A stretch of DNA of 20,480 nucleotides from positions 1 to 20,480 of the IMG/VR virus record IMGVR_UViG_3300035698_010627; one strand, given 5' to 3'. The notes under the pieces were generated by a model that saw nothing but the letters and a program-made list of their open reading frames with translations, ran no database searches and was not told the origin of the DNA. The position numbers were made by a program, and so were the translations under genes. Each line of letters starts with the position of its first letter. Position 1 is the stretch's first letter. Positions 1,614-14,742 of the stretch are shown piece by piece. The stretch is from a virus.

Positions 1614-3944
1614 TTAAGCTATTACGCCCCCATTATTAGCAAAGCATGTCCAGTTGCTACCATCCCACACGAACGAGCAACCTAAACCACTTGGGTCGGC
1701 GCTGAACGTAATTTGTGTGCCGCCAAACATAGATGTTGGGACTATCTTACACGAATCTGCTGCGTTGCCTACGGCAACAATAGCAAAATGCTTGATCTGT
1801 CCAGAGATTAAGCCATTTCCAAGTGTGACAGAATCGAGGTTCGAATCTCCGTCCGTTGTGATCAAAGTTACAACCGTGTTTATACTGGCAGCCGTACCGC
1901 TATTGTCACTCGTGATGCTGTCAGGTGTGTAAGCACATGCACCTGTGTGTGTGATATTGGCCGCAGCATTGGAAACAGCTAAAGTAAGTGCACCGGTAGC
2001 AGCCTGACTAGAAGCTATATTCACCTCTAAAGCTGCATCGATATCTACACCACCTGCAACCGAGTTGATGTCAATCGCTGCCGCGTTAGCTAATCCAGTG
2101 GATGTTAAAGTAATGCCTCCTGCATCGGATTCAAGCGCAATACTATCCGTTCCGGTTCCCTGGTCACTATGTACCCTGATTTTTTCGCTCGTTCCAGCGT
2201 CCGCATGTAGATAGATTGTATCTGCTGCGTCTTCGCCAGCATCAACAATAACTCGACCAGATGCCGAAGCTAGTGTTAGATCAATTCCGGCTCCGCTAGT
2301 GCTAAAATTAGATGCTCCTGCAGCGTCTAGACTAATCCCTAGAGCCGCGTCGACTGTTACCCCACCTGCAACCGAGTTGATGTCAATCGCTGCCGCGTTA
2401 GCTAATCCAGTGGATGTTAAAGTAATGCCTCCTGCATCGGATTCAAGATGAACACTTGCTGTGCCAGTACCTTGATCTGAATGCAAACGAATGGTTTCGC
2501 TAGTTCCAGCATTCGCATGTAGATAGATTGCATCTGCTGCGTCTTCGCCAGCTGTTACAATTACTCGACCGGCTGAAGAGGCTAGATCTAGATCAATTCC
2601 AGCTCCTGATACGCTGAAGTTTGAAGCTGCTGCGCCATCTAAAGAAATTGCTCCAGTAGAATCAACAATTACACCTGCAGTTCCAGCGTCAATATCAATT
2701 CCTCCAGCTGCATTGGATGCTGTTAGATTAATTGCATCGGCTGAGGCTAATCCTGAACTTAATGTAATTCCACCTACGTCAGACAATAGATTTAGACTTG
2801 ATACACCGGTTCCTTGATCAGAGTGAATTTTTATTGTCTCTGAGGTTCCACCGTTTGCACGAAGGTAAACTGAATCTGCAACATCCTCAGTGGACGTGAT
2901 ATTCACAGAAGATCCTGTTGCAGTAATATCGATATCTTCACCAGCTGCCGCTCCAGTAGCAAGAATCTGGACTCCTCCGGCTGTTGACTCTAAATAAATA
3001 GAATCTGCTGCGCTCTCTGTAGAAACTAATCGAATTGACGAACCTGTAGCCGTTAACGCTATATCTTCGCCAGCTACAGCCGCTGCTGCATTAATTTGAA
3101 TACCGCCGATAGAAGACGATACTACAATTGAATCAGCTCCACTCTCTCCGGCTGTAATATTTACAGAGCCACTTGTGTTTGTAATATCGATATCTTCTCC
3201 AGCACCACCGGCTGCTGTGATATCAATACCACCCGCACTAGCACTAACAACGATCGCATTAGCAGCATTTTGACTAGAGGCAATATTTATTTGTAGAGCT
3301 GCATCAACGTCTAGCCCTCCTGCAGCTGACACTAACGTGATAGCATTAGATCCGGCTTCCTCAGCGTTTATTACTACTCTTCCGGCGGCACTGTCTAATG
3401 TAAGATCAATTCCAGCTCCTGTAACTCCCATTGAAGATGCTGTATCTGAAACAAGAATGTTTCCAGTTCCAACACCTGTGGCTGCAAGGTCAGTAAACGC
3501 GCCAGAATCTGGGGCTGTTCCACCTATAGCTGGAGGAGATGCTAGGTTTGTCTTTAGTTTCAGTGGAGTAACTGCGGAGTCGTCATCTGTACCTGTATTT
3601 GTCATAGCTTGTGTAGCAAGAGGACCAATTCCGCGAATTCCTTCACCCCAATTCACTGAGCCAGCTAGTGTTAGTGCTGCCAGCGCTGCCGGATTTACAG
3701 CAATAGTTGTTGATGCTCCTGCTGCCGCCTCAGCTACAGTAGCAATCCTAATCTTACCTTTAACTGTTGTTGTGGCATCTGGTATTAGATCGTCCACCGC
3801 TCCGGCTAGACTAAGTGGTGAAATCATAACATCTGGGGCTGTTCCTGCTACGGCTTCTGAATTTGTAGCAAATTTCGCTTGTCCTGAATGATCTTTACTA
3901 GCTTTGCGTCCTGCATAGCCTACTGGATTCTGAAACTTTGACAT
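1614..3944 (-). CDS. Repetitive tail fibre protein, 776 aa
   Basis: Likely the host-recognition fibre. Residues 25-130 carry three degenerate copies of the phage fibre motif ATxxEAxxGT…xVxPxxL (near 26, 68 and 110). Residues about 170-660 are a Gly/Ala/Ser/Asp-rich beta-solenoid with alternating short strands (GGIDI, GSVNI, DSIYL types). In it, a 43-residue unit beginning GEDI starts at 249, 292 and 335, and a 104-residue unit is tandemly duplicated (441-544 and 545-648). The last 100 residues form a different domain ending DGSNWTCFANNGGVIA, probably a C-terminal cap or trimerisation domain. No signal peptide is present. The ATG at 3944 follows AGGA at a good distance. It is the last gene of the late operon and divergent from a small regulator-like gene. 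Confidence 0.85.
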   Translation of the reverse strand: MSKFQNPVGYAGRKASKDHSGQAKFATNSEAVAGTAPDVMISPLSLAGAVDDLIPDATTTVKGKIRIATVAEAAAGASTTIAVNPAALAALTLAGSVNWGEGIRGIGPLATQAMTNTGTDDDSAVTPLKLKTNLASPPAIGGTAPDSGAFTDLAATGVGTGNILVSDTASSMGVTGAGIDLTLDSAAGRVVINAEEAGSNAITLVSAAGGLDVDAALQINIASSQNAANAIVVSASAGGIDITAAGGAGEDIDITNTSGSVNITAGESGADSIVVSSSIGGIQINAAAAVAGEDIALTATGSSIRLVSTESAADSIYLESTAGGVQILATGAAAGEDIDITATGSSVNITSTEDVADSVYLRANGGTSETIKIHSDQGTGVSSLNLLSDVGGITLSSGLASADAINLTASNAAGGIDIDAGTAGVIVDSTGAISLDGAAASNFSVSGAGIDLDLASSAGRVIVTAGEDAADAIYLHANAGTSETIRLHSDQGTGTASVHLESDAGGITLTSTGLANAAAIDINSVAGGVTVDAALGISLDAAGASNFSTSGAGIDLTLASASGRVIVDAGEDAADTIYLHADAGTSEKIRVHSDQGTGTDSIALESDAGGITLTSTGLANAAAIDINSVAGGVDIDAALEVNIASSQAATGALTLAVSNAAANITHTGACAYTPDSITSDNSGTAASINTVVTLITTDGDSNLDSVTLGNGLISGQIKHFAIVAVGNAADSCKIVPTSMFGGTQITFSADPSGLGCSFVWDGSNWTCFANNGGVIA
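2050..2135. repeat. 86-bp exact direct repeat in the fibre gene, copy 1
   Basis: This stretch is identical to 2362-2447, 312 bp away (exactly 104 codons). It encodes ESDAGGITLTSTGL and the following residues through NSVAGG. It marks the best-conserved part of a tandem 312-bp coding duplication (2001-2312 and 2313-2624). Identity at synonymous sites means the duplication is recent or homogenised by recombination. Confidence 0.9.
2362..2447. repeat. 86-bp exact direct repeat in the fibre gene, copy 2
   Basis: Identical to 2050-2135. The flanking parts of the 104-residue module differ moderately between copies, for example VSGAGIDLDLAS against TSGAGIDLTLAS, so the exact block stands out from older divergence around it. 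Confidence 0.9.
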
Positions 3945-7707: not shown

Positions 7708-8309
7708 TCGAATCCCTCTCTCGGTGCTGCTGGTTGTTGTGCGATCTGTGTTGGTTTTTTATTTGCTCCAGCACCTTTAATTATTTGGTCAATTATAGAG
7801 TCGAAACTATCGCTCGCTAGAAATCCACCAAAACCTTCTTGTGCCGCTTGTCCTGTACTAATTCCTGGCTGAACTCCTTCACCACCACCTAGAACCTGAC
7901 CAAAAACGGCAGATTTTCTGTTTTGAGCATTCTGCTGAAAGTTCATAAATTGCTCATTAAGAAGTTGGTCCATATCGACTCCAGCTCTTGTCAGAGTATC
8001 TTCTACACCTGTTCCTCTTTGCTGTCCGCCAGCTATAAAACTTTGTTGAATTTGAGGAGCGATCTGATTACTAAATCGAGCCTTAGCAGGATCTACAAAT
8101 GACTTCTGAAAAGCTGACTCATCTGCCTCAAAAAGATCATTGAAACTTCCTTTACCTCTGACCGAAGCCATCAAGTCATCCAGAAGTTCCCGTTTTTGCC
8201 TTTGAGTTGCTGACTCTTTGGGTTGCCTATTTCCTAGTGCGGCGGCTCCTACTGAACCCGCTGCACTTATTCCTGCTGCTAGTAAACTCAATAGTGCTGG
8301 AGCTACCAT
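7704..8309 (-). CDS. Probable ejection protein, gp7-like, 201 aa
   Basis: The first 28 residues are a hydrophobic, Ala/Gly/Leu-rich segment (APALLSLLAAGISAAGSV). Next comes the charged pattern DPAKARFSNQIAPQIQQSF, then an Arg/Gly turn and helices ending at about 125. The remainder is Gly/Gln-rich. Small internal proteins with this N-terminal hydrophobic stretch lie right after the tail hub in P22-type phages (gp7, 229 aa) and T7-type phages (gp14), where they are ejected into the cell envelope. The hydrophobic stretch probably inserts in membrane and is not a cleaved signal peptide. The ATG at 8309 follows GAGGA. The 3' end overlaps the next gene by 4 nt. Confidence 0.65.
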   Translation of the reverse strand: MVAPALLSLLAAGISAAGSVGAAALGNRQPKESATQRQKRELLDDLMASVRGKGSFNDLFEADESAFQKSFVDPAKARFSNQIAPQIQQSFIAGGQQRGTGVEDTLTRAGVDMDQLLNEQFMNFQQNAQNRKSAVFGQVLGGGEGVQPGISTGQAAQEGFGGFLASDSFDSIIDQIIKGAGANKKPTQIAQQPAAPREGFE

Positions 8310-8319
8310 AATATCCTCT

Positions 8320-8583
8320 TTAAATTATTTGCCAAGTCACTGTGGTTGGATCTACGTGTGAAGTCAAGATCTGTACCCTTCGCGTGCCTGTATTAATATT
8401 AATATCTCCATTAGATAGGAATGTATCGGTCACTACTCCATCTACTGCTCTCTCTATGATATCCGGCTTCTTATTGATAGCAACCGCAAGATCTGTATAC
8501 GAAATTTCTAATAAATCTAACAGCTTTTCCAGTGTTAAATTCTCTCTGTCACTTATGTTGAACGTCTCGGAGATTTTGGCCAT
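8320..8583 (-). CDS. Hypothetical 87-aa protein between tail hub and ejection genes
   Basis: No family recognised. The N-terminal 45 residues appear helical and acidic (LTLEKLLDLLEISYTDLAVAINKKPDIIERAVDG is interspersed with Leu). The C-terminal 35 residues look like beta strands (INTGTRRVQILTSHVDPTTVTW). It has no membrane segment. The gene starts one base after the hub gene stops and ends 10 nt before the next start, so it is clearly part of the late operon. It may be a minor virion protein or a chaperone for hub or ejection-protein assembly. Neither can be decided here. Confidence 0.7.
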   Translation of the reverse strand: MAKISETFNISDRENLTLEKLLDLLEISYTDLAVAINKKPDIIERAVDGVVTDTFLSNGDININTGTRRVQILTSHVDPTTVTWQII

Positions 8584-8584
8584 A

Positions 8585-10471
8585 TTAGTCCGTTGTGTTT
8601 CCTGCCATAGCAGCGTGAATTCTTATACTTGTCACTCTCACCTGGTCTGTTATCGACTCTTGTCTCATTGCTAACACCATGAAATCTGCTGTGTTATTTA
8701 CCGATACGGATACCCATTCTCTGCTTTTTATTGTACTTGTCGGTTGTAGCAGTACATTTTCCTTAAACGGGTTTGGCTCTCCATCCATTAAAATATCTAA
8801 ACGAAGGTTTCCTGAGTTTGTGTCAATCAAGAATTCTATATGTGATATCCATACTTGGTTGCCTTGAGAGCGATATGGATTGAATGGGACTGTCTCTGCA
8901 TAAAAGTCGATTAACTTGCTAATTGTACCGCCGCTAGTCCAGGTAGTAAATGAAGTGGTGTTTACATCGACTGTAACCGTGTCGATTGTTCTAGCTGTGA
9001 CTGTTGCGGTCAAACCATTGATCTCTGTCATTCCCAATACATTATTGATTACTACTCTATCATCAACCTGTAAGGCGTGATCACTAGTTGTTATCACTGC
9101 GGCCGCTGCTTTTGTGATTGCTGGTAAGCCGCCGCCTGGATCTCTTAGTGCTATAAAATAGTCATCAAAATCTCTATTTAGCTCATAGATAAATCCTAGA
9201 TCATCACCCGCTAGAGTTTTTTGGGTGGCTTTTCCAAGTCCAATTTTATTCCAGATCTCTTCTGTAGTATCCCATGTTAACCATGCTGGATTCTCGTCCT
9301 CGTCAATATCATCCCAGGAGAGATTTTGTCCATTTACCGACTCACCAAAGCAACTAAATCTCTGATCGTTCGTTGACCATGAATTTTCTTCGTAGTTGTA
9401 GACCAACACCTTATCTTGTGTTGCTAATTCCACATCACTTTCTAAGTACGACCATAAAAATTGAGAGGTAATCCTATCGAATCCGCCATAAGTGAGCTCA
9501 AAGTCAATAGCGTCTATCTCGTTATCTGTGAAATAGGGTATTTTATTATCGATCCGATTGGACTGACGGCCGTCCGTTGAAATTATTCCTGTCTTACCTA
9601 TAGACTTCACTGTCTCATTCCATACGACTGATGAAAATGAAGCATCGGTTCCTAATACAGATGGTACTTTTCGTGAGAAATATGGATTGAAAGCATCTCT
9701 TGTCTTTTCAATGATCCAATTAGACTGACTAACGTTAAAGACTAACCTATCACCAAGTATTATAGCCCCTCGTATATGTTCGTATGTATCTATTTCGAGT
9801 AGACCTGCACCTGCAGTATTAAACTTGTCTCCGTTTCCAGCAGTGGTTCTAATCGCTGAATAAAGCATGCCTTGTGGGAAGAAAACGGAATTGATTGTTG
9901 GGGCTACGAAATTAATTCTCTCTCCAAACCAAAAAACGTGGAAAGCTTTATTGATATCCCCTGTTACATAGGCCTCATAATCCGGGTTATCTGCAGCATC
10001 TGTAAAATCTCTTACATCTGTCCCATCATAAAAGTATACACCTGGCATTCCTTTGCCTGTAAAAACAAACCGCTGTGTTCCATCTGATTTCGGGTATGTA
10101 GTTCCTGAAATATAGAACTCATTACTTGGTAATGAAAATCCTGCAAAGGCAGCCAAGCTACCAGCAAATGGGATGCGATCGAAAGCGTTTGTAATATCGC
10201 TATATCTATATAAATAGTTGAGATCGAAAGCTAAGGTTTCAACTGTGCTCGTTGCCGTCAAAATATGCTGGAATATCCCCATACAGCGAGTAGGAAGATG
10301 ACCAGTAGTTAAATACCCTGTCGAAAACTGTGAAAATCCTCTACGTGACTGTAAAACCTGTCTATAGATATATCCGTTTTTTACATTTTGAAATGAGTCA
10401 GCTGGTTGAAGAAAATTTACCCCTTCCCTGGATACTCCTGTTTGAAACCCTGTAATTTCGAAAACTTCCAT
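8585..10471 (-). CDS. Tail hub / nozzle protein, P22 gp10-like, 628 aa
   Basis: The protein resembles packaged-DNA stabilisation proteins (P22 gp10, 472 aa), which form the six-subunit hub below the adaptor and hold the packaged DNA in. The N-terminus (residues 1-50, GVSREGVNFLQPADSFQNVKNG…RRGF) is the usual start of this beta-propeller-type family. The region to about 440 is rich in aromatic-flanked strands typical of propeller blades (FHVFWFGERINFVAP, DRLVFNVSQSNWIIE). The extra length comes partly from an inserted domain at about 449-520 that matches a domain in two head-region proteins of this window. The C-terminal 100 residues form another beta domain. The ATG directly abuts the upstream stop codon. 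The final GGG GGA codons of the upstream gene act as its Shine-Dalgarno, so the two are translationally coupled. Confidence 0.78.
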   Translation of the reverse strand: MEVFEITGFQTGVSREGVNFLQPADSFQNVKNGYIYRQVLQSRRGFSQFSTGYLTTGHLPTRCMGIFQHILTATSTVETLAFDLNYLYRYSDITNAFDRIPFAGSLAAFAGFSLPSNEFYISGTTYPKSDGTQRFVFTGKGMPGVYFYDGTDVRDFTDAADNPDYEAYVTGDINKAFHVFWFGERINFVAPTINSVFFPQGMLYSAIRTTAGNGDKFNTAGAGLLEIDTYEHIRGAIILGDRLVFNVSQSNWIIEKTRDAFNPYFSRKVPSVLGTDASFSSVVWNETVKSIGKTGIISTDGRQSNRIDNKIPYFTDNEIDAIDFELTYGGFDRITSQFLWSYLESDVELATQDKVLVYNYEENSWSTNDQRFSCFGESVNGQNLSWDDIDEDENPAWLTWDTTEEIWNKIGLGKATQKTLAGDDLGFIYELNRDFDDYFIALRDPGGGLPAITKAAAAVITTSDHALQVDDRVVINNVLGMTEINGLTATVTARTIDTVTVDVNTTSFTTWTSGGTISKLIDFYAETVPFNPYRSQGNQVWISHIEFLIDTNSGNLRLDILMDGEPNPFKENVLLQPTSTIKSREWVSVSVNNTADFMVLAMRQESITDQVRVTSIRIHAAMAGNTTD

Positions 10472-11125
10472 TTATCCCCCGAAACAGAAAAACCAGCCTT
10501 CCGCTGGATTGAAGGTTGTATTCACCCTTATTGCCTGCATTCTCCAAGCTGTGGTTGTTTTAACAGGAACTCCGGTTATTGCTAGATCTGCTGTGGACAA
10601 GGTCACTACTCCTGTTCCCCTAGCTCCTCCAAAGACTAAATAGTTAGCTGATGGCAAAGGAGTTGTCGCGCCAAACGTGGCAATGTAGTATCCAGTAGCT
10701 CCCCCGTATACTACACTATCTACGTTGTGCGAATAGGTAATAGTCGGGGTTGTTCCTGCTATAGTGAAGCAAGCACACGCTCTGACACCCAACATTTCCA
10801 TTACTGCTGGTGTAACTGAACCGTCCTTAAAATATGGAAGCACATTTTGAATTGAAGGAGATTCTGTGGTTGTCTTCTCTTTTAAATAGATGGCACCGTC
10901 CATCCCAGTCGCCAAAGTAGGATCATCTGGGAGCCCACCTGTTTCTGTTTTCGGACTTTGCACCCACTTATGATGTCCGTCTGTATCACCTGAATCATTC
11001 CAATAGTGGTCTAAATTCATAGCTTCTTTGATGTACGTTGTATTGTTTGACCCTGTTGGACGATTTGTACTTACTGAACTTGTTCCAATTGGCCACCCAG
11101 ATGTCCACGGTACAGTAATTGCCAT
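10472..11125 (-). CDS. Probable short fibre-like or head-tail decoration protein, 217 aa
   Basis: Residues about 28-55 contain the motif TTYIKEAMNLDHYWN followed by DTDGHHKWVQ, a pattern I associate with N-terminal parts of podovirus fibre or appendage proteins that attach to the particle. The middle (ATGMDGAIYLKE…) links to a beta-rich C-terminal half with repeated Thr/Gly strands and ends IRVNTTFNPAEGWFFCFGG, like the end of a small trimeric fibre. Length and placement between the adaptor and hub genes would suit a small appendage or needle-like component, but it has no resemblance to the helical P22 gp26 needle. The start lies 3 nt after the stop of the 52-aa gene. Function is inferred. 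Confidence 0.6.
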   Translation of the reverse strand: MAITVPWTSGWPIGTSSVSTNRPTGSNNTTYIKEAMNLDHYWNDSGDTDGHHKWVQSPKTETGGLPDDPTLATGMDGAIYLKEKTTTESPSIQNVLPYFKDGSVTPAVMEMLGVRACACFTIAGTTPTITYSHNVDSVVYGGATGYYIATFGATTPLPSANYLVFGGARGTGVVTLSTADLAITGVPVKTTTAWRMQAIRVNTTFNPAEGWFFCFGG

Positions 11126-11128
11126 AAG

Positions 11129-11287
11129 TTAAGACCTCTCTCTTGGTTTTTTTTTATTAGATTTACCGGCAGCCTTCATTGCGATCGCTATCGCTTGAGC
11201 TCTTGGCCTTCCGCTTTTAATTTCTTTGGATATGTTCTTTGCTAGACCTTTCTTTGTCTTCGCTTTAGCTCCTTTAATCAACGGCAT
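11129..11287 (-). CDS. Very small basic phage protein with QAIAIA motif, 52 aa
   Basis: The minus-strand frame from ATG (11287) to TAA (11129-11131) encodes MPLIKGAKAKTKKGLAKNI, continuing with KEIKSGRPRAQAIAIAMKAAGK and a Lys/Arg tail. The family pattern, Lys-rich start, then (K)N(I)xxE(I)xxGxPxxQAxAIA, is common in short proteins of phages and resembles the DUF6496 type, function unknown. It is strongly basic, so nucleic-acid or head-interior binding is possible. A good Shine-Dalgarno (AAGGAG) lies 6 nt before the start. It is followed 3 nt later by the 217-aa gene and preceded by the adaptor gene, so it belongs to the late operon. Confidence 0.8.
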   Translation of the reverse strand: MPLIKGAKAKTKKGLAKNISKEIKSGRPRAQAIAIAMKAAGKSNKKKPRERS

Positions 11288-11405
11288 CCTATCTCCTTAG
11301 TCCTTGATATACACACCTTGTTTAACTCGTAGGAGCATGCCTTTAAATTCATATACGTCCCCTGGTTAGTAGGGGTATCTTATCACACTCACACCTACAA
11401 CATAA
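11288..11405 (-). other. 118-bp gap with possible micro-ORFs
   Basis: Between the adaptor and the 52-aa gene no normal gene is seen. A 24-codon frame starts at ATG 11352 after AGGGG (6 nt spacing) and ends inside the next start region. Another frame reads GDVYEFKGMLLRVKQGVYIKD before a stop and looks protein-like, but it lacks a normal start before Met10 of that string. A CCCCT (11359-11363) and AGGGG (11371-11375) pair forms a weak 5-bp hairpin. None is convincing. Confidence 0.2.
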
Positions 11406-12098
11406 TCAAAAACTCGGAATCCCTCTTTGTGTTTTGATCTGATTATGCGTGTGTGTCAGCATCAATCTTCTCTCTCTTGCATAATCTCTTTTCAACGCCT
11501 GTAGTTTTTCATCTGAAAATCTATAGTCCATCGCATAGTTAACGGCAGCTCCATATGCTAAGAATCGTAGCCAATAGTCAAAGTCTAGATTAGGGTTACC
11601 CACACTAGAGAAATCTAAATGTTTTTTGTATCCGTAGAGAGTTACAGTGTAACCAGTATTTGGAATCGTTCTAAACGTGAACTCATTTCCGTAATATAGC
11701 ATATGTGTCGGCTGTCCAATGGTCAGAACATCTGTATTCTCCACTCCCCAATAACCGAAAAACTGTCCTGGATCTTGATATATTACTAATGGTGTCCAGG
11801 ATAGAGACCCTGTTGGCGGATTAGTTAGACTAATGAAGCCATTTCCGGAGATATTTACAAACTCGTCAGTAGCTCCCACGTCATTAAAAGTGTAGACACC
11901 CGTAGCATTTGTTTCATCAATCTGAAATGTCAGCGTTCCAAACTGTTCAAACAATTTGACTTCGTCACCCATGGTTAGACTAACGAAGTCATTTAGATAC
12001 CCCAACAACGTCTCATCGCTAGAATCAGGATCGTTAGCATTACGACGCGATATTGCTAGGCGCATAATCTTAAGACAGTCATTGACGGTTCTGGCCAT
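11406..12098 (-). CDS. Head-tail adaptor, P22 gp4-like, 230 aa
   Basis: The N-terminus (ARTVNDCLKIMRLAISRRNAND, then DETLLGYLNDFVSLTMGDEV) is the helical start typical of the tail accessory factor gp4, which binds the portal in twelve copies and forms the platform for the tail hub. A beta-rich insert follows (about 52-155, including TIGQPTHMLYYGNEF). The closing helices (DFDYWLRFLAYGAAVNYAMDY and LKRDYARERRLMLTHTHNQI) are also typical. It is longer than P22 gp4 (166 aa), and I did not identify the cell-wall hydrolase activity reported for that protein. The ATG at 12098 has GAGG upstream. The gene is located before the hub gene, as expected. Confidence 0.8.
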   Translation of the reverse strand: MARTVNDCLKIMRLAISRRNANDPDSSDETLLGYLNDFVSLTMGDEVKLFEQFGTLTFQIDETNATGVYTFNDVGATDEFVNISGNGFISLTNPPTGSLSWTPLVIYQDPGQFFGYWGVENTDVLTIGQPTHMLYYGNEFTFRTIPNTGYTVTLYGYKKHLDFSSVGNPNLDFDYWLRFLAYGAAVNYAMDYRFSDEKLQALKRDYARERRLMLTHTHNQIKTQRGIPSF

Positions 12099-12101
12099 TT
12101 C

Positions 12102-12575
12102 TTATTCCTCGTACGTAGTTCTAAGTGAAAATCTTGGCTCTCTATGAGAAATACGTGTCTCCGATGAACCATCCGGATTGTCGTACCACTTCCAATGAGG
12201 AACGCCTTTTTCTGCTAAGTGATTTATGATTACTCTAGGTAGATCATAAGTCTTTCCTGGATAAAGTGTCTGCTCAAAATGAATAAGATGGTTACTCAGG
12301 AAGACCGGAAGCGCGTTAAGTGGCTGATCTACTCTTCCAAATACAATCCTTTCCTTAGGATGTAATTCTAGTGGTGCGGGAATACATGGGTATCTGCACA
12401 CCTTCAACCTCCTATTTTCCTTGCGAGCTGCTGCATTATACTGCTTGTGTTCTTCGTAGTTTGTTAACGGCATCTCATCGATTGCCCCAGGTTTTGGGGC
12501 CTGTGCAATCATTGTATTCATTGCTGGCTCTATAATCTCATCTTTCTTTTCGTCTGTTTTACAAGGTCTTCCCAT
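12102..12575 (-). CDS. Hypothetical virion-region protein, 157 aa
   Basis: I do not recognise a named family. The first 40 residues are polar and probably flexible (GRPCKTDEKKDEI). The C-terminal 110 residues are globular: LHPKERIVFGRVDQPLNALPVFLSN, then HFEQTLYPGKTYDLPRVIINHLAEKGVPHWKWY. These residues predict a compact mixed fold with strong Pro/Tyr/Trp content. The lysine-rich region RRLKVCRYPCIP contains two nearby cysteines. No membrane segment. It lies between the 106-aa head-region protein and the adaptor, separated by 36 nt and 3 nt. The position suits a head-completion or connector protein, which is inference. Confidence 0.72.
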   Translation of the reverse strand: MGRPCKTDEKKDEIIEPAMNTMIAQAPKPGAIDEMPLTNYEEHKQYNAAARKENRRLKVCRYPCIPAPLELHPKERIVFGRVDQPLNALPVFLSNHLIHFEQTLYPGKTYDLPRVIINHLAEKGVPHWKWYDNPDGSSETRISHREPRFSLRTTYEE

Positions 12576-12611
12576 CTCTGAGGCTCCAGGTTATATTGTT
12601 TGATTTATTCA

Positions 12612-12932
12612 CTATGGATATACCCATAGGAATGTAGTATTTTCTAAATTTGTTCGACCACCGGTGACATATGTCTCATAGTTTGTTGAATCAATATAGT
12701 TCCTTGTGACTGGATCTTTCAACAAGAATGTTGTAGTTGAATCTACTTCGATTATATATTCATTTCCATTGATTTGCACCATTCCGCGTTTCGTTGGCAT
12801 CATGTTTCCAACGTCAGAAATGCGGATGCTTTGGCCATTCGTATACCCATGGACATCTGTTGTAGTAACCTGACATCTAGCAGCCTTAGTCACTGCTGAA
12901 ATCAATGCTCTGTATGCTACTTGTCCTGTCAT
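12612..12932 (-). CDS. Single-domain head-region protein, shares domain with capsid-neighbour and tail hub
   Basis: The 106 residues are almost one domain (about 6-98): RALISAVTKAARCQVTTTDVH, then SIRISDVG, MMPTKRGMVQINGNEYII, FLLKDPV and YVTGGRTNLE. This matches residues 101-192 of the upstream 255-aa protein nearly position by position and, more weakly, residues 449-520 of the tail hub. Phage proteins with this beta-rich module are often annotated as similar to the FCCH domain of ubiquitin-activating enzyme E1, a resemblance of fold and not of function. It may be a decoration or head-completion protein. The ATG at 12932 has AGGAAG upstream, just after a terminator hairpin. Confidence 0.75.
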   Translation of the reverse strand: MTGQVAYRALISAVTKAARCQVTTTDVHGYTNGQSIRISDVGNMMPTKRGMVQINGNEYIIEVDSTTTFLLKDPVTRNYIDSTNYETYVTGGRTNLENTTFLWVYP

Positions 12933-12967
12933 CTTTACTTCCTGTTTAGGCTAGTTTGTTTCATAAA

Positions 12968-12995
12968 GCTAGACTCCTTTTTAGGGGAGTCTAGC
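12968..12995 (-). terminator. Intrinsic terminator after the capsid genes
   Basis: GCTAGACTCC (12968-12977) and GGAGTCTAGC (12986-12995) form a perfect 10-bp stem with an 8-nt loop. On the transcribed minus strand it is followed by TTTATGAAAC, a short T-run. It is located in the 90-bp gap between the 255-aa and 106-aa genes. A leaky terminator here would make more mRNA for scaffold and capsid than for tail genes, a common phage arrangement. The stem could instead protect the 3' end of the capsid mRNA. Confidence 0.65.
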
Positions 12996-13022
12996 CGGAA
13001 CGGTAAGTACTAACCAATATCC

Positions 13023-13787
13023 TCAGCCTATGTCGCCCAGGTCGACGAATGAACCGTAACCATATGATTGAACGAGAATAACGTCTGAGTCAGCCCCGAT
13101 CACACTGGTTCCTAGAATCAACTTATAATCAATAGGATCATATTTAAATCCTGTTGAAACATAAGGTGTGACATCATACGGACTTACTTGAGGGTTATTC
13201 AAAGTTAATGAATGACTCTCAAGATCAACACGACCACCGGCCACCCAAGCAGTGAAAGCAGTAGAATTGATAGCGTCGTCACTAACTGGATCTTTCAAAG
13301 AGAAGTTAGTCGTATCGATAACAACAACTCTATATCTATTGTTATTCAATTCATTCATTCCTCTAGCAGTAGGCATGTCTGGACCTAAGTCTGTAATGCG
13401 TACTAACTGATCAGTCTGAAGTCCGTGTACTGCTGTTGTAGTTACCACACAAGTAGCAGCTTGAGAAACAGCAGAAATAAGCGAACGAACTGCCGTCACT
13501 CCTCCAGCTGAATTATCAAGAGTGAAACCATTCGTAGCTGTATCCAGAAAGTTAAAGCTAGCACCGGCGGAGCTATCAATAACTTGCTGTTGGAAAGCAC
13601 GAACATCAGTAGTCTGATCACGAAACCAAAATGATCGTGGTAGACCAGCTGCTGTTGCCGTCCATTGTGTTAGGTTGTTAACAACAACCATGTCAGGCTG
13701 CCAGCTAAACTGTAGTGTGTAAGCCGCACCGCCAGAAACAAGCTTAAAAGCTTCTGATCGTGACTGACCAAGATTTAAATTAGGCAT
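13023..13787 (-). CDS. Capsid-associated protein with the shared FCCH-like domain, about 254 aa
   Basis: Located 7-10 nt after the major capsid gene, so likely a decoration, head-fibre or head-completion protein. Residues 1-100 form an N-terminal beta-rich region (SGGAAYTLQFSWQPDMVVVNNLTQW), a pattern seen in phage head-associated proteins. Residues about 101-192 are the module shared with the 106-aa protein. A short C-terminal part ends with strands VILVQSYGYGSFVDL. A near-perfect Shine-Dalgarno (TAAGGAGGT) precedes two consecutive ATGs. The second (13787) has the better 5-nt spacing and is used here; 13790 would add one Met. A terminator hairpin follows the gene, so it shares the strongly expressed capsid segment. 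Confidence 0.72.
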   Translation of the reverse strand: MPNLNLGQSRSEAFKLVSGGAAYTLQFSWQPDMVVVNNLTQWTATAAGLPRSFWFRDQTTDVRAFQQQVIDSSAGASFNFLDTATNGFTLDNSAGGVTAVRSLISAVSQAATCVVTTTAVHGLQTDQLVRITDLGPDMPTARGMNELNNNRYRVVVIDTTNFSLKDPVSDDAINSTAFTAWVAGGRVDLESHSLTLNNPQVSPYDVTPYVSTGFKYDPIDYKLILGTSVIGADSDVILVQSYGYGSFVDLGDIG

Positions 13788-13797
13788 CATGACCTCC

Positions 13798-14742
13798 TTA
13801 TGCTAGTGCTTTAGTTGAAAGCAAGTTTACGATATGCGAATCATCTAGGATAGCAGCATTAAAAAATGCTGTGAAACCCATAGATTGAAAGCGGTTTAGA
13901 TAATCGTTCCAGCCTAGAGGCTTGAGGATCATTTCTGTCGCCATTTGGTCGATGGATACATATCCATAAGCATTAGCACCAACAAAAGTGTTGCTGTATT
14001 GAGGTGGTGAGTCGCTAGACACGTTTACAAGAGTAGACGTTACCCATCGAGCTTCATCAGTAGCGCCAAACTCAGTTTTTAGAACTGACTCTTGTGCGCC
14101 GTACTGTGAAGTCGGTACAAAAGCATCTAGAGCTCGAATATCCGGCTTCAATTTCACATGTGCTGCAACCCAGAAAGCGGCTTCCACTGGTCCTGTTCCA
14201 AAGCGACTAGAGCCATCGACCGTAGGTGTCATTTTCTCTGTGTCGTTCTCGTCTAGGTATGCAATCGCGCGGTTCACATCGATCTGTGTGAGCTCTGTAA
14301 TTGCATTTCCGTTGACTCCATTAAGACAAGAGATCTGAGCTACTGAAGAAGCCCAAACATCGCGAGTAACCTTATCAAGCATAGTGTGCATGCACTGAGA
14401 AAGATTATCGACAGTGCCATTAGCGGTGTCATCTTCCACAACAAGTAGAACCTTGCGAGAAAGAAGAACAACTTTACCGAACTCTTGTGGAGTAACTGAA
14501 ATATCGAACTTAAGAACCTGCTCAGGTGCTGGATCTGCATCTTCAGGCAGAACTACCGGGTCAGAGTTTAGGTTTTCTTGACGACGAAATACCATCGTGT
14601 CAGTACTTTTCTGCGGAAGAGCAAATGAGCTTCCGAACAGATTATGTACATTATTAGGCTTAGATCGCTGAAGCAAAGCACGGTGTGCCCAACTATCAGC
14701 CATTGATCCGTAGCCCGAAGTCGTTGTAACTGCGTTAGCCAT
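13798..14742 (-). CDS. Major capsid protein, N4-gp56-type, 314 aa
   Basis: This is the HK97-fold shell protein. The segment at residues about 35-135 (NLFGSSFALPQKSTDTMVFRR, then PVVLPEDADPAPEQVLKFDISVTPQEFGKVVLLSRKVLL, then helix to DKVTRDVWASS) follows the characteristic order of the N4-gp56 capsid family: a metal-free extended arm, an FRR strand, a 'TP..FG..v.lS' strand and the start of the long spine helix. The C-terminal half has the usual A-domain strands (NTFVGANAYGYVSID). P22 coat is a different, longer (430-aa) branch with an inserted domain, absent here. Start ATG has AAGGA upstream at 9 nt. It follows the scaffold gene by 23 nt. Confidence 0.82.
   Translation of the reverse strand: MANAVTTTSGYGSMADSWAHRALLQRSKPNNVHNLFGSSFALPQKSTDTMVFRRQENLNSDPVVLPEDADPAPEQVLKFDISVTPQEFGKVVLLSRKVLLVVEDDTANGTVDNLSQCMHTMLDKVTRDVWASSVAQISCLNGVNGNAITELTQIDVNRAIAYLDENDTEKMTPTVDGSSRFGTGPVEAAFWVAAHVKLKPDIRALDAFVPTSQYGAQESVLKTEFGATDEARWVTSTLVNVSSDSPPQYSNTFVGANAYGYVSIDQMATEMILKPLGWNDYLNRFQSMGFTAFFNAAILDDSHIVNLLSTKALA

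Follow-up and report, generated by a model that had tools for sequence, protein, structure and literature searches.

A beta-barrel of the E1_FCCH type occurs in three virion proteins of an uncultured short-tailed phage

Is one small domain used repeatedly in the head and tail proteins of a single phage and, if so, what is it and what might it do there? The question is raised by IMG/VR record IMGVR_UViG_3300035698_010627, from an uncultured short-tailed phage, whose whole stretch of 20480 bases was analyzed (the window). A preliminary description of this DNA claimed that one small beta-rich domain is common to three proteins, here called protein A (255 amino acids (aa); module at residues 101-192), protein B (106 aa; residues 6-98) and the hub (628 aa; residues 449-520). 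The genes and coordinates given there were correct, and pairwise, shuffle and profile-profile tests agree on the common domain.

BLASTP aligned A with B at 52% identity over 96 aa (E-value (E) 4.6e-31), A with the hub at 32% over 84 aa (E 2e-7) and B with the hub at 30% over 82 aa (E 3e-6). In a shuffle test 0/2000 shuffles attained the score of any of the three pairs. When the hub segment was compared with 19 window proteins, the top scores were those of A (91) and B (74), followed by a score of 42. A profile made from hub modules only identified window A at 9e-6 and window B at 5e-5. The reverse direction was weaker, the A/B-only profile identifying the window hub at 0.08 only, with 11 hub matches in relatives at <1e-3. 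Reversed-protein decoys gave no match at E <= 10 among 3942. The preliminary description had proposed a profile comparison of the hub segment with the other two as a check. The hub-only alignment (15 rows) matched the A/B-only alignment (22 rows) with a probability of 98.7 and a significant E of 1.5e-16, which at the level of sequence is decisive for homology of the hub module with those of A and B. These comparisons demonstrate that, as judged by sequence, the three segments are homologous and of common descent.

The module proved to be a beta-barrel of the E1_FCCH type (Pfam PF16190), related to a domain of the human ubiquitin-activating enzyme, and so belongs with an already known family that the preliminary description missed. 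The hub module scored over the curated PF16190 cut-off of 29.5 bits (32.8 bits, E 7.3e-8), while B (27.1 bits, E 4.6e-6) and A (23.3 bits, E 6.8e-5) were just below it. Profile and fold mark A and B as PF16190 homologues without formal membership. Relatives of A matched PF16190 in 84/86 cases at E <= 0.1 (best 2.2e-9). Against PDB sequences, a profile of 47 modules from A, B and hub proteins identified the UBA1 FCCH domain at E 4.3e-10, and a profile of B relatives matched UBA1 FCCH (2lzj) at E 4.7e-6. The AlphaFold model of A had a mean predicted local distance difference test score (pLDDT) of 85.9 and a predicted template modeling score (pTM) of 0.65. Within it, the predicted module was superimposed on human UBA6 (7pvn) with a VIA Z score of 14.4 and a root mean square deviation of 1.2 Å over 79 aligned residues (27% identity), which demonstrates the FCCH fold of the A module in the model. 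In the hub model pLDDT was about 91-94 across the module stretch and the strand order of the module was that of A; structure matches of the whole hub were mostly nozzle and propeller chains. Homology between the phage and E1 FCCH domains is well supported.

The preliminary description had listed a set of shared landmarks (ITKA, VTT..HG, D.V.I, GM..LN, Y/W...GG). The landmarks are largely UBA1 FCCH residues. When conserved phage-module columns were aligned to UBA1, 26/33 kept the same residue group there; the landmarks are therefore best read as fold determinants rather than a common binding site. The module resembles the E1_FCCH domain (first catalytic cysteine half-domain) of UBA1, UBA6 and UBA7 in predicted fold and landmarks, and a passage in PMC12355090 describes FCCH in E1 as an insertion into another domain as well. 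The phage copies differ in lacking E1 context; no ThiF/E1 adenylation domain was matched in A, B or the hub at E <= 1, and the module occurs either as an insert in virion proteins or free-standing.

The identity of the hub was approached through its predicted structure (pLDDT 88.9, pTM 0.88). Foldseek matched the model to 9nwi at E 4e-27, and VIA gave Z scores of 29.3 for Pa223, 27.2 for SU10 and 25.1 for P22 gp10 over about 420-517 residues. As modeled, the hub is a tail nozzle of the P22 gp10/SU10 type. It is like the nozzles P22 gp10, SU10 gp17, VP1 gp16 and Pa223 in fold (Z 25-29) and in the position of its gene downstream of the adaptor. The whole hub had no match in the phage collection at E <= 0.01. 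Propeller-only proteins align to the hub from residues 30-43 through 432-437, and since these matches end there, the module lies after the propeller and before the C-terminal part.

According to the preliminary description, the insert is what makes the hub longer than P22 gp10. The added domain in a gp10-type hub stands, while the full excess in length is not explained by it; P22 gp10 has 472 aa, and the module accounts for roughly half of the extra length. The case for an insertion with respect to gp10 is built on the fold and on the absence of a module match (P22 gp10 gave no row at E <= 10 in a set of 11 proteins), because profile-profile sequence alignment of the hub family with P22 gp10 failed, with a probability of 0.2 only. 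The solved nozzles differ from the hub in that the module profile, at E <= 5, hit no nozzle chain among the solved sequences. In SU10, Ig-like domains between blades 2 and 3 are described in a portion of PMC9509320, instead of the module. A different hub insert, of 109 aa, was observed in loci L052 and L053 (hub 7989-10178) at hub residue ~55 in window numbering; that of L052 had no Pfam match at E <= 1.

How constant is the module among relatives? Scans of IMG/VR generated 150 loci, several of them from the same contigs. They contained 83 hub-like open reading frames (ORFs), of which 13 under 500 aa were dropped and 70 kept. The module was at the same place in 70/70 hubs of at least 500 aa, 69 by the first profile and the last by a larger one. 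The search for hubs without the insert, proposed in the preliminary description, found none among these 70 long hubs of close relatives. Exactly one module was present in 92/92 A-like relatives of at least 200 aa. In 68/88 loci where this region was visible, protein B separated A from the following conserved gene; the other 20 lacked it. In 27 whole records every module match fell in an A-, B- or hub-like frame, with three matches in 22 records, two in 4 and five in 1 (two of these being contig-end fragments). The module is fixed in A and the hub and optional as B.

Additional copies were found in nozzle proteins. Two of the 70 hubs, L011 and L066, have a second module at residue ~577, which the other 68 do not. 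The second modules form one clade (support 100) and are nearer the nozzle module of Vibrio phage MZH0603 (47% for L066) than the module already in the hub, which favors import over internal duplication. Among cultured or named phages, 6 of 22 matched records were examined. The module was present in the gene after the adaptor in HTVC010P (gp13, residues 103-181), Lederberg (gp12, 102-180), MZH0603 (99-170), 1.185.O (171-242) and CP2 (ORF19, 102-172), and the 1144-aa nozzle-position protein of MW202478 (L154, 6150-9584) has five module copies. Both profile halves identified the modules of cultured nozzles, at ~1e-7 to 1e-18 for the best match per protein, so that intermediates link A and B to the hub. 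Vibrio phages 1.185.O and MZH0603, whose nozzle-position proteins are annotated as FCCH, and pelagiphages HTVC010P and Lederberg, in which the protein is named tail tubular protein B, share the same module with the window. They differ in its position, which is near residue 100-240 rather than after the propeller as in the window hub. From the alignments and tree, these copies demonstrate gain of the module at further positions in nozzle proteins. A separate A-type protein was not found by profile in the six cultured stretches examined.

The module tree placed 16/16 A rows and 31/32 B-labelled rows in one set with a Shimodaira-Hasegawa-like approximate likelihood ratio test value of 96; the remaining B-labelled row comes from a partial ORF. 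This grouping is in line with an origin of the A and B modules by duplication, as had been suggested earlier. On the nearness of B to A of the same phage, which bears on gene conversion, this tree (106 rows, 81 columns) had only 6 starred branches. For the N-terminal domain of A no PDB sequence match below 0.069 was obtained, and A residues 1-100 had no PHROG match at E <= 5. The family phrog_584 (T1-type tail tube) matched 77/86 A proteins. The A module was also superimposed on the T1-type tail tube protein 9l0f (residues 14-97, Z 9.2) and on FCWL1 9jlf (16-96, Z 9.1). These differ from A in being tube proteins of long-tailed phages, and the sequence match to 9l0f is weak (E 0.27). Epsilon15 gp10 was considered as a relative of B and rejected, the match being partial only and not significant by profile-profile comparison. 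In locus L083 (5342-6061) A is present as two adjacent ORFs. HNH-like ORFs, read from the translation, are inserted right after A in L003 (5089-5772) and L004 (5473-6138). In the window, a strong hairpin with 11 paired bases in its main stem lies between A and B (12933-13022); its energy is -27.8 kcal/mol (z -3.66 vs shuffles), and it is absent from the terminator scan list.

What, then, does the module contribute to the virion? It seems to us somewhat probable that the segments are copies of one mobile accessory E1_FCCH barrel acting as a structural brick with protein-protein contacts in the virion, the role of brick being one that we infer. Identity within the A module is 0.617, compared with 0.644 and 0.62 for the rest of A; within the hub module it is 0.467, compared with 0.567 for the propeller and 0.491 for the C-terminal part. 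The module is not hypervariable, a pattern that suits a structural element better than a host-range or receptor domain under rapid change. The hub would presumably be a hexamer at the tail tip, with the module at the point where the chain passes from the propeller to the C-terminal platform part. In SU10 the propeller side in question bears the short-fiber dock, and chain order suggests that the window module may lie near the equivalent place. SU10 nozzle domains stabilize the tail and interact with short fibers, as described in sections of PMC9509320. The hub module could hold neighboring subunits together or serve as the attachment point of an appendage, for example the collar-fiber gene product. 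A and B may decorate the head or lie at its vertices, there too with the barrel in contact with other proteins. Partners would differ from copy to copy; what the copies share would be the fold and not a ligand site.

Several points weigh against this structural-brick interpretation. Conservation is somewhat lower in the hub module than in the propeller, as would also suit an exposed ligand-binding domain. The fold of the hub module is deduced from sequence and strand order. The pTM of 0.65 for the A model makes the packing of the parts of A uncertain. The proposed equivalence with the SU10 fiber dock comes from chain order, not a residue map, and the contact partners of all copies of the module are hypothetical.

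Unlikely, in our estimation, is that the module is a glycan-binding host-surface barrel, displayed by all three proteins on the outside of the virion to keep the phage attached to cell or capsule, much as the barrel of K1F endosialidase binds polysialic acid. The A module resembles K1F endosialidase region 425-510 (Z 6.4) and phi92 endosialidase (Z 7.5) within an endosialidase range of Z 6.2-7.5. K1F gp17 residues 433-495 matched the module profile at E 0.12 in the 11-protein set, and one of 59 hub relatives had an End_beta_barrel match at 0.079; PF12195 gave no row for window proteins at E <= 1. The K1F barrel is the polysialic acid site and a host-discrimination hotspot, according to part of PMC12632334. 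The K1F beta-barrel (PF12195) also resembles the module in its setting, a propeller-containing phage protein. However, Z < 8 may mean a mere common arrangement, and the FCCH match is far stronger at Z 14.4, with the tail-tube proteins of T1 and FCWL1 at Z ~9. The K1F sequence match is not significant, and K1F endosialidase is a sugar-binding enzyme, not a nozzle. The conserved residues are fold residues common with UBA1, conservation of the A module is on a par with that of the remainder of A, and FCCH itself contacts a protein, ubiquitin, as stated in a portion of PMC12355090. The preliminary description had suggested that reuse of the module reflects a common glycan- or capsid-binding surface; the columns shared with UBA1 and the lack of hypervariability leave that suggestion unsupported.

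We consider it rather improbable that A and B are cement proteins whose module binds the capsid in the manner of an I-domain, with the copy in the hub a later loan without a common task. A and B are candidates for capsid decoration or cement in that their genes are directly behind the coat gene. The CUS-3 coat I-domain (6mnt) matched weakly (hub profile E 0.021, module profile 0.4), as did P22 gp5 residues 257-280 (0.047), and epsilon15 gp10, which a passage in PMC7602432 identifies as a capsid-stabilizing protein, matched the A/B profile over 40 residues at 1.5e-4 (the latter two in the 11-protein set). All of these matches are weak or partial, those of P22 gp5 and epsilon15 gp10 are not significant by profile-profile comparison, and binding of A or B to the head is hypothetical. 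Chance or convergence of short beta-strand motifs can hardly be entertained: the hub is only 30-32% identical to A or B over ~83 residues and scores only weakly with the A/B-only profile, but the shuffle, profile, profile-profile and decoy tests all oppose it, the three segments independently match PF16190, and the intermediates in cultured nozzles were found from both sides.

Part of this has a precedent. Some phage genomes already name the nozzle-position gene "FCCH domain ubiquitin-activating enzyme E1". Among the papers listed on FCCH or PF16190 and phages, judged by titles and the beginnings of abstracts, none treats FCCH as a virion module. Exchange of a small beta domain between virion proteins is known from the Ig-like accessory domains of phages, as outlined in part of PMC13320782; these domains differ in having a fold other than FCCH. 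The present results assign a named fold to a small domain of unknown type in a lineage of uncultured phages, and place one barrel at least twice, usually three times, in one virion. With FCCH recognized, nozzle proteins and those encoded next to the coat gene can be annotated cheaply across many phages, among them pelagiphage HTVC010P. E1 FCCH domains are stated to be unique to eukaryotes in a passage of PMC11354881. The phage proteins contradict that view as far as the domain itself goes, and the conflict makes the origin of E1 FCCH a testable question. It is possible, although doubtful, that FCCH is not a eukaryotic invention and that the ubiquitin-contact domain of E1 was recruited from a mobile barrel of tailed-phage virion proteins (nozzles, tail tubes and coat-adjacent proteins).

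The head and tail genes are on the minus strand of the window in the order terminase, portal, scaffold candidate, coat, A, B, a 157-aa protein and adaptor, followed by a 217-aa fiber-like protein, the hub, further genes and a 776-aa tail-collar fiber. Coordinates are listed in the table.

Table. Positions in the window of the module-bearing genes, their modules and selected neighbors
Feature	Position	Strand	Evidence or remark
Major capsid protein, upstream neighbor of A	13798..14742	-	phrog_1357, E 6e-27
Protein A, 255 aa, directly after the major capsid gene	13023..13790	-	Beta-domain of A interrupted by the module
FCCH-type module of protein A, residues 101-192	13215..13490	-	Structure match to UBA6; PF16190, 6.8e-5
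Protein B, 106 aa, free-standing module, optional gene	12612..12932	-	ATG with AGGAAG before it
FCCH-type module of protein B, residues 6-98	12639..12917	-	PF16190, 4.6e-6; profile match to 2lzj
Head-tail adaptor, SU10_adaptor family	11406..12098	-	PF24175, E 1.9e-7, over cut-off
Hub (tail nozzle protein as modeled), 628 aa, P22 gp10/SU10 gp17 type	8585..10471	-	Fold; phrog_3287, E 3e-10
FCCH-type module in the hub, residues 449-520	8912..9127	-	PF16190, E 7.3e-8
Tail fiber candidate, 776 aa, repetitive	1614..3944	-	phrog_910 tail collar fiber, E 1.8e-17, residues 14-135

Relatives of the 776-aa fiber share mainly its N-terminal part, with N-terminal matches in L003, L004 and L014. A gene for a 52-aa basic protein lies between the adaptor and the 217-aa gene (11131-11287; phrog_2423, E 1.1e-11), and a 67-aa ORF at 1178-1381 has partial matches to HNH endonuclease and helix-turn-helix DNA-binding families. 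Contigs of the same phage lineage (L162 and L163) were present in a Parcubacteria and a Bacteroidales metagenome-assembled genome. They are probably phage contigs in a bin, and no host is therefore claimed; the coat gene of L162 is split into two ORFs. In the pair L005 (728-2881) and L006 (572-2824), the large terminase is present as two ORFs in one contig, and that of the other contig has a long internal extra stretch of ~230 aa that is intein- or intron-like.

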